Source: Desulfuromonas sp. SDB
GTDB taxonomy: Bacteria > SDB-A
Direction of reading: 5' to 3'
DNA: 14,751 bases
NCBI GenBank assembly: GCA_001412365.1
Contig: LKUE01000277.1
Span: forward strand, 1-14,751
In this document: piece after piece, positions 5,150 to 14,615 of the stretch
How positions within the stretch are numbered: the first letter of the stretch is position 1
Layout: each line of letters starts with the position of its first letter
Program-made: the position numbers and the translations under genes
Notes under the pieces: model-generated
Told to the model about the DNA's origin: nothing
Seen by the model: the letters and a program-made list of their open reading frames with translations, nothing else
The model's database searches: none

Positions 5150-5665
5150 TTAATTCTTCACTTCCAGACAGATCTGCTTGATCAGAACAAACACCCAGAC
5201 CCCAAAAGGAATTATAAAAGAAATAATTAAAACCAAAATTTCCAGGGATGATAAATTATTAATTGATTCAAAAAACAATATAACACAGGAAGTCATCAAG
5301 ATAATGCCAATGGAGAACAACAGCATCATTCCTGCATTGGAGACATGTTTATAAGCGGAATGCTGCCTCATCCCCAGTTGATCTTCAATTTGCTTGCACC
5401 GGTCGTATTTTTCCTTTTTAGCTCTATTACTCATTTTTACCAGAAGTCCGGTAATTAAAATCAGGATAATTCCTATTTCACTGGCTAAGGCGACGAAGAA
5501 TTTATTGGTGCTATGATCAATTTGACTGAAGGCAAAACCCAGCAGAACAATAATGGCAGTAGTCATAATACTCATCGAAGTCCACTGAAGATTATCATGG
5601 TGCTGAGCTGAATTTTGAGCCTGTTGATATTCGGTTAACAATATCTGTCTTTCGATTTCTTCCAT
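5150..5665 (-). CDS. Four-helix integral membrane protein, function unknown
   Basis: I take ATG 5665 as the start because AGGAGG lies four bases ahead of it; a longer reading from 5689 would put that site inside the gene. The 171 residues begin with an amphipathic polar helix rich in Glu and Gln (M-E-E-I-E-R-Q, T-E-Y-Q-Q-A-Q). Four hydrophobic segments follow at about 31-48, 56-77, 111-132 and 141-162. A charged loop (K-x-x-N-R-A-K-K-E-K-Y-D) lies between the second and third. No catalytic motif is seen and I do not recognise a named family, although an N-terminal polar helix with a conserved-looking H-H-D-N-L-Q-W before the first helix occurs in small bacterial membrane proteins. It is the first gene of the putative six-gene minus-strand operon. 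Confidence 0.72.
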   Translation of the reverse strand: MEEIERQILLTEYQQAQNSAQHHDNLQWTSMSIMTTAIIVLLGFAFSQIDHSTNKFFVALASEIGIILILITGLLVKMSNRAKKEKYDRCKQIEDQLGMRQHSAYKHVSNAGMMLLFSIGIILMTSCVILFFESINNLSSLEILVLIISFIIPFGVWVFVLIKQICLEVKN

Positions 5666-5908
5666 CCATCCTCCTGGAATTATTTTCAAAAGTAATATTT
5701 AAAATTAGCATTGCCAGTTAACAAAGTGAATGTTTTTCAGCAAAATCAATTACTTTTCCTTTGATATATTTCCAAAATGACCCTAAATTATTTATGATGA
5801 AAAAATGAATAGAAACCATAAAAAACAATGGATAAATAGATATAATTTCAACATGAGGTCATAGAAACCCCAGTTTTTCTTTTCTATTAATAAATCTATT
5901 GAAATTTC

Positions 5909-8029: not shown

Positions 8030-11000
8030 CTACCGTCGCCAATTCTTAAATTTTCTGATCATTTCTTGATCATCATTTTCAACGGCACTTTTCATTCCCT
8101 TATTCAACATCAGTATAGCATCTTCTTTTTTATCCATTTCAATTAACAGCTCAGTTATTTCAAGATAGTATTCGGGAAGATGGGACTTTAGATTATTCTT
8201 CTCCAGAATTTCGATAACTTCATTATAAGTTTCCAATGACTGCTTGTATTTTCGAATATTTTTGTAAAATTGGGCAATATTCCCCAGTGAAAATATGACT
8301 CCTTCCAACATTCCAATCTCTCTGGCAATACTCAAAGACTTTTTAAAATTCAGCAGGCATTTGTAATTTTGCCCTAAAATCCCGTAAACGCTGCCTATAT
8401 TCATATATGCCTGTGATAAACCGATTTTATCTTTAATTTTCCTTGAAGTTTCCAATCTCTTTTTATAGTAGAATATAGCTTTATCATAATCCTTCTTGAG
8501 ATAATAAATACCTCCAATATTTGAAAGAACCGCTCCCAGACCTTTTACATCTCCAATTTCTTCAGTGATCACCAAAACTTGCTCATAATATTCCATCGCC
8601 TTATCTGGCTGCTTTAAATAATGATACGCTAAACCCATATTCCCCAGGGAGTAATGCTGTTCCTTTCTATCGCCTAATTCCTTGGCAATTTCATACTGCA
8701 TCTTGAAATATTCCAGAGATTTTTCATACTTCTTAAGTGAAAGATATAAATTTCCTGTATTTCCGTATGCCCTTGCTTGGTTGATTTTGTCATTTAGTTC
8801 AATTGAAATCCTCAATTTCTCATCCAGACACTCTTTACCCTCATCAAAATTTCCCTGTATGATATTTATCACTGCCATATTTCCTTTAGCATCGGCATAT
8901 TGTTTCCGGTCATTTAACTTATCTGATATTGACAGTTGTATATTATATTTACTCAGAGCTTTAGGAAAATTACCCATTGACCAGTAAATATGACCCAAAA
9001 TCCCACTTGCCCTCGCATAATCCTGTTTTGCCTGATATTTCTCAAAAACTTTTACCGCATCCAGGGCATATTTAAGTGCTGGTTGGTAATCTGAGATTCG
9101 ATCCAGATGTTCAGCAAACATTATTTTAATTTTTGCCAGGTATATTTCATCTTCAAATTTTTCTGATGATTTTAGCAGTTCTCTGTACAATTTTTCAGTT
9201 TTCTCCCACTCTCCTATCAACTGCATTATGTCAGCTACCTTCAGAGAAATATCAATATATTTTTTCTTTATTTTGATACTGTCTTCACTTTGTTCTTTTT
9301 TTCTGAGGTAAAAGAGCAGTTTGTTGTAAAAATCAAGAGCTTTGCGGTTTTCAAATTTTTCCTTGGAAAGATCTCCTGCCTTTTCAAGATATTCCAGTGT
9401 CTTATTTCTAATTTGCGCTTTTTCATAATGATTAGCTAATTCAGCGTAGTGCTGTTCTAAGGAATCAATGTTCATCTCTTCTATTGTCTCTGCTGCAAGT
9501 TTGTGAAGATTCCTCAATCTTTCCTTGAGTTGCATCTGATATATGCTTTCTCTAATCAATGCATGCTTGAAGATATAAATCAATTCATTAAGAGGGAAGT
9601 AAATTGACTCTGTTTCTCCTTCCCGAAGAAGATTTTCAAAATCATCGAATTTCAACATTTTCCTCAGTACATTTACCACAAATTCTCTCCCCAATACGGA
9701 AGCGGTTTGTAACATCACTTTCAGTTCATCGCGGAGGCGGTCAATCCTGGAAATAATAATGGCATTGATATCAGAAGGTATTTCAAAAGTTTCATTTAAT
9801 AGCCTGAAATCCTCATCTATTAAATTATTTTCACTCAGATACTTTAAAATCTGCTCCAGGTAGAAGGGATTTCCTTCACTCTGTCTGGATAAATAGTCCA
9901 GAGTATCTGTAGGGATATCATTTGCCTGAAGTATTATTTTTGAAAGACTATCTATTCCCTCTTTATCCAGATAGCCCAGGGTAATCCTTTTCTCCGAATT
10001 CCTCCCTGTCTTCAATGTAAAATTGGATCCGTCATTGTTGAATCTGCAGGTGGTTAATATTATAAAAGGAACATCATCTACATTCCTGGTCATTATATCA
10101 AGCCATTTCTCTGTATCCGGATCAATCAGATGACCATCCTCCAGTTCAATTATTACCGGTCTATATGAACTTTCCGCTATTATTAATTGCTTCATTCCAT
10201 ACAGAATATTCTCATATCTTCCCTTGCCGTTGAGTTGTTCAAATAATGAACCTTCCCAGAAAAGATTGACCAGTGAACCGAGAATTGATTTTATCCTGAT
10301 CAGTTCTTTTTTTCCTTTTTCAGCTTGGTCAATTAAATCTCTGTACTTTTTCTCAAATGAGGAGAAATTCTCCTTATTGGATTTCAGTTCGGATTGATTG
10401 AAGTAGTCCTTTAAAAAACTCTTAATCGGATTAAAGCTGTTTTTCAGTATCTCGTCACAGGGAAGATACATCCAGGTGTATCTGTCCTTAACCCTTTCTC
10501 TAAGTTCCTGAAGTAGGACCGTCTTCCCTATACCCGGCTCCCCTTCTATATATACTATTCCTCCAAATTTTCCCTTTTCGATATTTCCCAGATAATCATT
10601 TAGCAGCTTCAGTTCTTTTTTTCTTCCCACCATTTCAACTTTATATCTTTCCCTCTTTTTCTTTTCACCAAGACAGTAAACCTGTACCAGTCTATTAAAA
10701 CCTTTGAATCTCAATTTCCCCTTATCGGATACAATGTATTTATTACTGACTTTTCTCAGTATACTCTCATCAATTAAGATTTGCCCGGTATCAGCATAGG
10801 TCATTAATCTCGCAGCAAGGTTGATATGCCTACCCTGCGCGGTATACTCTGCCCGGAAACTGCTTCCGGTAAAACCGGCAAAAGCCCTGCCATAAGTCAT
10901 GCCTATCTTCGCTTTAAATCCCTTTATTGCAATCACCCCTAATACAAAATCACATGCCCTGATCAAAAGATTCTCTTTGGTTACCGGAGCTCCGAACAGT

Positions 11001-11866
11001 ATCAGCAGAAAACCTCCTTTGTCCCCAAAACTGACTCTGTTGAAATACCCTCCGTAATGATTTGCCAGTGATATTACCTTTGAAATATTCGCCAAGTATT
11101 TTCCTTTTTCCGCAAAGGAAATAAAACAGCTGACTACATCCCTGAACTCTCCCTTTACCTTCTGCCTTATTATATTTTCAGGAAAAAACACTTTTTGTAT
11201 TTCCAAATCAGTAAATTCTGCTTGGTCATATTCATCTGTATCAGGACTTTCCCTGTCACCAGGTTCAATTAAATAAAAGCCACTCTTTTTTTCAAAACTT
11301 TTAAAACTGCTGCCTATTTTTTCCTTCAATGTCCTGTCAATTACTATTTCCCCTTTATTACAGTATTTTTCACCCTGAGAACCGATCTCTATCGCTTCAC
11401 CTTTGAAAAAATAGGAATTCTGGTATTGGTTTTTGATTATTCCCCATTGAACTTCCCCCCAAGCTGCTCCTATTTTTACCTCCAGTCTGAAATTCCCGAA
11501 TTTTGTCCTCTGATAACCAGTTTCTAAAAATACTTTCAAAATTTTTTCCGCTGATACTACAGCATTTTGGAATTTTTTATAAAAAGTTTTAGCTGATTTA
11601 ACCGAAGGAAATATTGCATAAAAAGCGTCCCCGCCAAATGTAGATACAAATCCGCCGTATCTGTAAATGATTTCTATGGAAGGAGTGAAAACATCGTTGA
11701 TAATTTTAGTAAGTATTTCCGCTCCTTCTTTTCCGTTTTCCATTAATTTCTGGGTCATGGATGTGAATCCGGATATATCAACAAAAAGGACTACTGCTTG
11801 TAATTTCCCTCTGTATTTACCCATTTTAAATTTTTCAATAATGTATCCGGGAACTAATGAATTCAA
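8030..11866 (-). CDS. Soluble-adenylyl-cyclase-like protein: tandem class III cyclase domains, STAND ATPase, TPRs
   Basis: The 1278 residues carry, in order: cyclase domain C1 (about 20-200), with both metal-binding Asp residues, F-V-D30-I-S-G-F-T and F-G-G-D80-A; cyclase domain C2 (about 240-400), which lacks the metal Asps but has D-K283-G, Y-T342 and the transition-state pair N349/R353 in R-H-I-N-L-A-A-R; a P-loop ATPase with Walker A G-E-P-G-I-G-K-T (442-449), a Walker B-like I-I-E-L-E-D (572-577) and a winged-helix region; then about ten TPRs from 870 to the end. C1-C2-ATPase-TPR is the layout of ADCY10, which makes cAMP from ATP. The residue split implies one composite active site per chain. 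No signal peptide or membrane helix is seen. The start is TTG 11866, with GGGAG about ten bases upstream and a stop in frame before it. It is flanked by hairpin repeats and is likely monocistronic. Confidence 0.88.
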   Translation of the reverse strand: MNSLVPGYIIEKFKMGKYRGKLQAVVLFVDISGFTSMTQKLMENGKEGAEILTKIINDVFTPSIEIIYRYGGFVSTFGGDAFYAIFPSVKSAKTFYKKFQNAVVSAEKILKVFLETGYQRTKFGNFRLEVKIGAAWGEVQWGIIKNQYQNSYFFKGEAIEIGSQGEKYCNKGEIVIDRTLKEKIGSSFKSFEKKSGFYLIEPGDRESPDTDEYDQAEFTDLEIQKVFFPENIIRQKVKGEFRDVVSCFISFAEKGKYLANISKVISLANHYGGYFNRVSFGDKGGFLLILFGAPVTKENLLIRACDFVLGVIAIKGFKAKIGMTYGRAFAGFTGSSFRAEYTAQGRHINLAARLMTYADTGQILIDESILRKVSNKYIVSDKGKLRFKGFNRLVQVYCLGEKKKRERYKVEMVGRKKELKLLNDYLGNIEKGKFGGIVYIEGEPGIGKTVLLQELRERVKDRYTWMYLPCDEILKNSFNPIKSFLKDYFNQSELKSNKENFSSFEKKYRDLIDQAEKGKKELIRIKSILGSLVNLFWEGSLFEQLNGKGRYENILYGMKQLIIAESSYRPVIIELEDGHLIDPDTEKWLDIMTRNVDDVPFIILTTCRFNNDGSNFTLKTGRNSEKRITLGYLDKEGIDSLSKIILQANDIPTDTLDYLSRQSEGNPFYLEQILKYLSENNLIDEDFRLLNETFEIPSDINAIIISRIDRLRDELKVMLQTASVLGREFVVNVLRKMLKFDDFENLLREGETESIYFPLNELIYIFKHALIRESIYQMQLKERLRNLHKLAAETIEEMNIDSLEQHYAELANHYEKAQIRNKTLEYLEKAGDLSKEKFENRKALDFYNKLLFYLRKKEQSEDSIKIKKKYIDISLKVADIMQLIGEWEKTEKLYRELLKSSEKFEDEIYLAKIKIMFAEHLDRISDYQPALKYALDAVKVFEKYQAKQDYARASGILGHIYWSMGNFPKALSKYNIQLSISDKLNDRKQYADAKGNMAVINIIQGNFDEGKECLDEKLRISIELNDKINQARAYGNTGNLYLSLKKYEKSLEYFKMQYEIAKELGDRKEQHYSLGNMGLAYHYLKQPDKAMEYYEQVLVITEEIGDVKGLGAVLSNIGGIYYLKKDYDKAIFYYKKRLETSRKIKDKIGLSQAYMNIGSVYGILGQNYKCLLNFKKSLSIAREIGMLEGVIFSLGNIAQFYKNIRKYKQSLETYNEVIEILEKNNLKSHLPEYYLEITELLIEMDKKEDAILMLNKGMKSAVENDDQEMIRKFKNWRR

Positions 11867-13629: not shown

Positions 13630-13935
13630 ATGAGTATTGTATCAGACATATTAAAAGAAGAAGCTAAAAGATTGTTAGCTCTGAAAAAAAAATATCAAAA
13701 AGAATTAAGTAAATTTCCTAAAGGTTCCTTATCAAAAAAAAGAAGAGGGAATAATAATTATTATTACTTGGTGTTCAGAGAAAAAGAAAAAATTAACTTT
13801 AAGTACGTAGGTAAAGAGAATTCAGATAAAGTAAAAAAATTAGAAAATGATATAAAAAGAAGGGATAGCATCAAAGAAAAACTTAAAAAAATTAATCGAA
13901 ACCTCGATGAAATAAAGAAAGTACTTAATGATTAA
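13630..13935 (+). CDS. Small basic coiled-coil protein, candidate antitoxin/regulator
   Basis: I take ATG 13630; a TTG at 13615 would lie inside operator box 4 and near the transcript start. The 101-residue protein is very rich in Lys. It has an N-terminal helix (D-I-L-K-E-E-A-K-R-L-L-A-L-K-K-K-Y), a central K-G-S-L-S-K-K-R-R-G followed by Y-Y-Y-L-V-F-R-E-K-E and F-K-Y-V-G-K, which reads like a small beta module, and a long C-terminal coiled coil. The G-S-(I/L)-x-K-K ... Y-Y-Y ... Y-(L/V)-G-K pattern recurs in small bacterial proteins of unknown function. Its stop overlaps the next start (ATGATTAA), so the two genes are coupled. Upstream position, small size, charge and the operator array suggest the antitoxin or repressor of a toxin-antitoxin-like pair; this is inferred, not shown. 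Confidence 0.65.
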   Translation: MSIVSDILKEEAKRLLALKKKYQKELSKFPKGSLSKKRRGNNNYYYLVFREKEKINFKYVGKENSDKVKKLENDIKRRDSIKEKLKKINRNLDEIKKVLND

Positions 13936-14615
13936 TAATGAAAATTTATTTCTAAAAATTCTAAAAATTTTTGAGAAAAAGGATATATTAAAAAATTTAA
14001 TATTAGTGGGTAGTTGGGTTTTACCAGTTTATAAAGAATATTTTAATAATTCCCCTGACATACCTATTCTCAGAACCACTGACCTCGATTTCATTGTCTA
14101 TGATTATCATAAAATAAAAATACACCGAGATCTTTTAAAAATTTTAAAAGAACTTGATTTCGAAATCCAGTATTCTGTTTTAGGAAATTTCCAGAAATTT
14201 ATTCATCCTGATCTTGAAATTGAATTTTTAACTCCTCAAAAAGGGAAGGGGAACCGATAATGCATTAGAAATAAAACAACTTAATATTTCTGCTCAACCA
14301 TTAAGATATATTAAATTTCTTTGTTCTTATATAATCCAAGTCCTTTATAATGATATAGAATTATATGTACCTGAACCAACTATATTTACAATGATGAAAT
14401 TTCTTCTCTCGAAAAAAAGGAAAAATACAACCAAAGCAAAGAAAGATCTATATACAGCCATAGAACTAAGCCAATATTTAATTAACATTGAGAGAGAAAA
14501 AGAAAAATTCAAATATTATTTTAGTAAAATGCCCAATAAATGGAAAAAAGAATGTCTAGAAGTAATAAAAGCAGAATACAACACTTTATATTCAATTTTA
14601 TCAAAATCCGAATGA
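13928..14615 (+). pseudogene. Nucleotidyltransferase (NTP_transf_8-like), single-base frameshift
   Basis: ATG 13928 overlaps the previous stop by eight bases. The first part shows L-V-G-S-W (26-30), then R-T-T-D-L-D-F-I-V (49-57), the Gly-Ser and Asp-x-Asp of nucleotidyltransferases, and a later acidic strand E-I-E-F-L-T-P (97-103). The frame hits TAA at 14258. In the next frame the same family continues without a break from 14253 (T-D-N-A-L-E-I-K-Q-L, A-Q-P-L-R-Y-I-K-F-L, V-P-E-P-T-I-F, K-A-K-K-D-L) to TGA 14615. One surplus base in GGGG at 14248-14251 or the following AA explains it. Restored, it is about 228 residues, a normal size for the family. Relatives (AbiEii, MNT types) act as toxins that transfer nucleotides to RNA or protein. 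The partner and operator favour a toxin-antitoxin role. The family name is from memory of its motifs. Confidence 0.72.

Follow-up and report, generated by a model that had tools for sequence, protein, structure and literature searches.

A bacterial sAC-like cyclase with a predicted STAND switch and TPR region in Desulfuromonas sp. SDB

Introduction

Among proteins of solved structure, the closest relative of the protein analysed here is the human soluble adenylyl cyclase (sAC) ADCY10. In this enzyme, R176 holds the metal-binding residue D99 in an inhibitory salt bridge, which is broken by bicarbonate (PMC12250328). The sACs of sea urchin and salmon each lack one residue of the K95/R176 bicarbonate pair, and these enzymes are regulated by pH and are not activated by bicarbonate (PMC12867704). 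The adenine base is read by K334, with the Lys of the Asp-Lys-Gly (D-K-G) motif located in a neighbouring loop (PMC12867704, Table 1).

Known systems also resemble the remaining parts of the locus. STAND regulators such as MalT, Apaf-1 and the protein of structure 6mfv carry a P-loop NTPase with helical and winged-helix parts, as does the protein described here, and in MalT and 6mfv a TPR-type repeat sensor lies behind the NTPase in the same manner. However, where those regulators have a DNA-binding or CARD domain as output, our protein has a cyclase pair, and this pair is placed ahead of the NTPase. Among bacteria, the sAC-like cyclases of Chloroflexus are reportedly the subject of a 2004 study by Kobayashi, Buck and Levin. 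This work is cited in passages of PMC11006738 and PMC6660944, and the passage in PMC11006738 gives a Chloroflexus cyclase as bicarbonate-activated. In Xanthomonas, the genes XC_0250/XC_0249 bring together a class III cyclase with TPRs and an adjacent cNMP-GGDEF gene, and the messenger is cGMP (PMC3770947).

Results

Gene architecture

The window (the whole stretch of 14,751 nucleotides from Desulfuromonas sp. SDB that was analysed) contains an open and intact reading frame of 1278 amino acids on the minus strand, which begins with a TTG codon. The sequence GGGAG is located about 10 bases upstream of this start, and the N terminus of the encoded protein (hereafter the window protein) aligns with the MRNLIP.FI start of its paralogues. 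A Pfam scan reveals two Guanylate_cyc stretches, an AAA_16 domain and many TPRs, confirming the original prediction that an ATPase and TPRs lie behind the cyclase halves. The principal regions are as follows.

8030..11866, minus strand: whole gene, encoding a C1-C2 cyclase pair, a STAND-type NTPase and TPRs (1278 aa, TTG start)
11297..11866, minus strand: C1 cyclase half, residues 1-190
10652..11161, minus strand: C2 cyclase half, residues 236-405
9377..10639, minus strand: STAND-type NTPase and winged-helix region, residues 410-830 (AAA_16; fold of 396-830)
10520..10543, minus strand: P-loop GEPGIGKT, residues 442-449 (all 33 aligned rows share its Lys)
8033..9376, minus strand: TPR region, residues 831-1278 (where conservation between paralogues is lowest)

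The anatomy of the gene, in which a bacterial sAC-like cyclase is joined to a STAND switch and a TPR half, is well supported, and it is ordinary in kind. The best reading is that of a STAND-gated sAC-like cyclase, a known kind of protein, with a notable expansion in this lineage.

Kinship with ADCY10

When residues 1-412 were compared with all solved structures, human ADCY10 was the best sequence match (E 1.7e-18). With a profile built from 44 rows, a single match to ADCY10 spans the two halves (E 1e-74), and the next cyclase follows at 4.7e-36, which places the likeness far above chance. The AlphaFold (AF2) model of residues 1-411 has a pLDDT of 93.8 and a pTM of 0.92. Foldseek searches with this model return ADCY10 entries in all of the top 24 places, and VIA-align superposes it on ADCY10 (4clk) with Z 41.0 and an rmsd of 2.5 A over 390 aligned residues; the next structural family is AC9, at Z about 36. 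Because ADCY10 leads the structural matches to this extent, the predicted pairing of C1 with C2 is that of ADCY10 crystals, as the original prediction had assumed.

Within the C1-C2 core, to which this comparison applies, both proteins have two cyclase halves per chain, one composite site, the same catalytic columns, a common F-D-K-G loop and the same overall fold. In contrast, sequence identity is about 21%, and the window protein has no K95/R176 pair and carries an Arg at the K334 adenine position.

Catalytic residues

Pairwise phmmer, MAFFT and hmmalign agree on the residue columns. In C1, D30 and D80 correspond to D47 and D99 of ADCY10, and E160 (D173) and Q164 (L177) occupy the positions where C2 has Asn and Arg. 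In C2, D282-K283-G284 corresponds to D339-K340-G341, and T342, N349 and R353 correspond to T405, N412 and R416, with Thr-Asn-Arg spacing identical to that of ADCY10. The division of residues recognized at the outset, with both metal Asps but no Asn/Arg pair in C1, and with D-K-G, Thr342, Asn349 and Arg353 at ADCY10 spacing in C2, is thus recovered by all three aligners.

11777..11779, minus strand: Asp30, metal Asp (ADCY10 D47); of the 114 aligned rows, 113 have D and one has a gap
11627..11629, minus strand: Asp80, metal Asp (ADCY10 D99); all 114 aligned rows have D
11474..11476, minus strand: Lys131, at the position of the pyrophosphate Lys144 of ADCY10 (by alignment; role from PMC12867704, Table 1)
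11015..11023, minus strand: Asp282-Lys283-Gly284, in the F-D-K-G loop common to ADCY10 C2
10841..10843, minus strand: Thr342 (ADCY10 T405)
10820..10822, minus strand: Asn349 (ADCY10 N412)
10808..10810, minus strand: Arg353 (ADCY10 R416)

Together with the predicted pairing, these columns support an sAC-like tandem, in which the presence of one composite active site per chain and a degenerate second site is a well-supported prediction. Conservation was assessed in 114 aligned rows, comprising 113 bacterial sequences (the window protein included) and the human one, and the residue is kept in 113 rows at D47, 114 at D99, 111 at N412 and 110 at R416. From these features we infer that the window protein is catalytic.

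Some relatives depart from this pattern. Three genes that coexist with active paralogues (L104:1804-5526, L094:2-2029 and L051:13468-14670) are likely pseudo-cyclases with N, H or E at the D47 position, and the first two additionally carry M or F at R416. Not all members of the family are active cyclases, given the loss of catalytic residues in L104 and L094:2-2029. In a separate subgroup (L088, L086:537-4529 and L094:6548-10516), T405 is replaced by Ser, and the otherwise near-invariant N412 by Ile or Thr.

Predicted STAND NTPase and TPR half

The AF2 model of residues 396-830 has a pLDDT of 91.5. Its best structural matches are MalT (8bob, Z 23.8), Apaf-1 (Z 23.0) and the STAND protein with a TPR sensor (6mfv, Z 22.2), and the P-loop Lys does not vary across the 33 aligned rows. 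The back half is therefore modelled as folding like a STAND switch of the MalT/Apaf-1 type, which is then followed by the TPRs. For pairs drawn from ten full-length paralogues, median identity is 36% in C1, 36% in C2 and 38% in the winged-helix region, compared with 21% in the TPR region. This difference would suit a shared output coupled to different sensors, although repeats that are weakly constrained would show lower identity as well. Together, the STAND fold and the faster divergence of the TPRs lend support to the idea that the ATPase/TPR half serves as the sensor.

Two other families were compared. NCBIfam TIGR03903 (TOMM system kinase/cyclase fusion) matches residues 263-867, which span C2 and the ATPase region, at E 8e-43. 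However, its score of 146.5 bits is far below the cut-off of 705.75, no kinase domain was found in the window protein, and the first cyclase half lies outside the reported match, so this assignment was rejected. PADLOC PycC models give weak matches (best E 1.4e-9), at the level expected for any class III domain, and Pfam identified no Pycsar effector among the genes neighbouring the window gene.

Expansion in the lineage

The genome containing the window (3.14 Mb in 433 contigs) carries about 16 genes of the C1-C2, NTPase and TPR architecture. In this count, L047 and L048, which lie on two contigs and have overlapping ends, are taken as the two pieces of a single gene. Three related genomes give 16-20 matches each, with some genes matching twice, and in one relative two sAC-like genes are arranged in direct tandem (L086 and L098). 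A contig scan of genomes with the single protein returned no relative; the relatives came with a narrower alignment. In a set of 386 genomes, of which nearly all lie outside the family, 35 gave a match at E <= 1e-40.

Bicarbonate positions

The bicarbonate residues K95 and R176 of ADCY10 align with T76 and S163 of the window protein in phmmer, MAFFT and hmmalign, which firms up an assignment first made by eye.

11639..11641, minus strand: Thr76, at the position of the bicarbonate Lys95 of ADCY10
11378..11380, minus strand: Ser163, at the position of the bicarbonate Arg176 of ADCY10

The site was judged from sequence alignments, several of which agree that no Lys/Arg pair is present, and from the global structural match. 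Among the 114 aligned rows, only the human row has both residues, and the pair occurs in none of the 113 bacterial rows. The nearest bacterial cases are two rows, which carry Lys/His and Leu/Arg respectively, and the commonest residue at position 176 is Ala. Likewise, none of the 44 profile rows has two Lys/Arg residues at positions 95 and 176. The class Chloroflexia was searched around a Herpetosiphonaceae bacterium genome, and none of the rows read there has a K/R pair at these positions. Five tandem genes come from a 5,258,541-base Chloroflexia genome, which by its size we take to be that of Chloroflexus aurantiacus J-10-fl. Their residues at position 176 are A, G, A, A and S, and those at position 95 are K, K, K, T and H. 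The lack of the pair at the positions that the original prediction had singled out is accordingly common to all of these bacterial relatives and is not distinctive of the window protein. Because no sampled bacterial tandem relative has the pair, K95/R176 looks like a later animal feature, as judged from the aligned sequences.

The same prediction held that the enzyme should make cAMP and be insensitive to bicarbonate specifically because T76 and S163 replace the pair. We regard this version as plausible but lean slightly against it. The T76/S163 alignment is stable across aligners, yet the pair is absent from every bacterial tandem relative sampled, including all five genes of the presumed C. 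aurantiacus genome. Human sAC needs the pair, and the sea urchin and salmon enzymes that lack one of the two residues are not activated by bicarbonate (PMC12867704; mechanism in PMC12250328), whereas a Chloroflexus cyclase is described as bicarbonate-activated in the passage of PMC11006738 that cites Kobayashi 2004. With the pair missing throughout the bacterial relatives, bicarbonate insensitivity does not follow from its absence, and any bicarbonate activation of bacterial sACs would need to occur in another way. The two cases are not identical, however. The Chloroflexia genes examined share with the window gene an sAC-like tandem and the lack of the pair, but many of them keep K95, including three of the five in the 5,258,541-base genome, whereas the window protein has Thr at this position and retains neither residue.

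Base recognition and candidate cyclic-nucleotide readers

The D-K-G motif had been listed among the retained features of C2. The loop is indeed kept, but its Lys is not the residue that reads adenine in ADCY10. That role belongs to K334, whose column holds Arg277 in the window protein (MAFFT, hmmalign).

11036..11038, minus strand: Arg277, at the position of the adenine-recognition Lys334 of ADCY10 (by alignment; role from PMC12867704, Table 1)
10835..10837, minus strand: Gln344 (ADCY10 I407), found together with Arg277 in eight rows that all belong to this lineage

Lys is present in the K334 column in only 14 of 44 rows, and relatives show K, R, G, Q, M, V and S. This variation suggests that K334 is not a strict mark of sAC-type tandem cyclases. 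With R277 at the adenine position, ATP is the likely, though not certain, substrate and cAMP the likely product, and the choice of base is not settled.

Candidate cyclic-nucleotide readers are encoded in these genomes. The group comprises four genomes, that of the window included, and each gives five cNMP-binding matches. Among those in the window's genome, one is a cNMP-GGDEF protein, another is mechanosensitive-channel-like and carries a cNMP domain, and a further one is CRP-like; these domain names were assigned by eye, the GGDEF protein by its likeness to the domain-scanned L091. The cNMP-binding-GGDEF proteins are encoded at three loci.

L087:817-1995 (relative G003): cNMP-binding-GGDEF protein
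L091:355-1455 (relative G002): cNMP-binding-GGDEF protein
L225:75-1142 (window's genome): cNMP-binding-GGDEF protein

In two relatives, the cNMP-GGDEF gene is divergent from an sAC-like gene of the Arg277/Gln344 type. The corresponding genes in the window's genome lie at contig ends (C172, C418), and their adjacency there is thus a guess. It is possible that the cNMP-GGDEF protein relays a cyclic nucleotide signal to cyclic di-GMP. A TPR-histidine kinase gene is located on the other side of the cNMP-GGDEF gene (L091:5351-7000, L035:4009-5757). As a family-wide association, the pairing of cNMP-binding genes with sAC-like genes was rejected, since it occurs at only a few of 156 loci.

In the neighbourhood examined, the window gene itself is not flanked by any cNMP-binding gene. 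Divergent from the cyclase gene is a gene for an HTH and SocA/Panacea-domain protein (antitoxin-like; window:12106-12885), which is followed by small ORFs including a nucleotidyltransferase-like one (13928-14260, NTP_transf_8). Elsewhere, the window encodes a small membrane protein that matches the 8xMP family below the cut-off (5150-5689) and a Choloylglycine-hydrolase-family (linear amide hydrolase) protein (1059-2144).

A product other than cAMP would be expected if Arg277 and Gln344 formed a base pocket altered for GTP or another nucleotide, which we consider unlikely. An Arg in place of K334 and a Gln two residues past Thr342 do occur together in eight rows of this lineage. However, this co-occurrence mostly reflects shared ancestry, and a co-evolving pair was rejected because independent pairs mostly show no difference (about three of eight agree, p 0.25). 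Thr342 is retained, and the K334 column varies widely among relatives in any case. Known guanylyl cyclases carry a Glu/Cys pair, from which Arg277/Gln344 differs. The divergent arrangement seen in the two relatives resembles that of Xanthomonas XC_0250/XC_0249, for which the product is cGMP (PMC3770947), but the likeness is one of gene arrangement, and the window gene has no such neighbour. It is improbable that the cyclase half is a pseudoenzyme that only binds nucleotide. In favour of this reading, the structural matches include 6yii, a class III-like ATP-binding protein (Z 25.8), and some relatives have lost catalytic residues. The window protein, however, has all of the metal and transition-state residues, which are near-invariant across the 114 rows.

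Discussion

Overall, we consider it likely that the product of the window gene is a bacterial nucleotidyl cyclase of the sAC-like type that a STAND switch gates, with TPR inputs and a cyclic-nucleotide output. The product, switching, ligands and readers that we infer for this protein can be arranged as follows. C1 would provide the two metal-binding Asps and C2 the Thr, Asn and Arg of a single composite catalytic site per chain. A ligand or partner acting on the TPR region would most likely drive ADP/ATP exchange in the MalT/Apaf-1-like NTPase, and this exchange would alter C1-C2 pairing so that synthesis of the cyclic nucleotide, most likely cAMP, is raised or lowered. Because the cyclase and winged-helix parts are better conserved than the TPRs, the approximately 16 paralogues look as if they connect different inputs to one common cyclic-nucleotide output, for which the genome's five cNMP-binding proteins may be the readers.

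A more ambitious interpretation is that the lineage maintains an NLR-like repertoire, with some 15 or more STAND-gated cyclase paralogues per 2-3 Mb genome that combine a conserved cyclase output with diverged TPR sensors. One cyclic nucleotide would then be relayed by cNMP-binding effectors, including the cNMP-GGDEF protein, through which the signal would reach cyclic di-GMP. We offer this interpretation tentatively and consider it less likely than not.

The survey of relatives sets the mammalian bicarbonate pair in context, since its absence is normal for bacterial members of the family. From the STAND fold located behind the cyclase, a concrete model of how sAC-like enzymes are regulated suggests itself, and the lineage expansion offers many natural variants of the sensor half for comparison.
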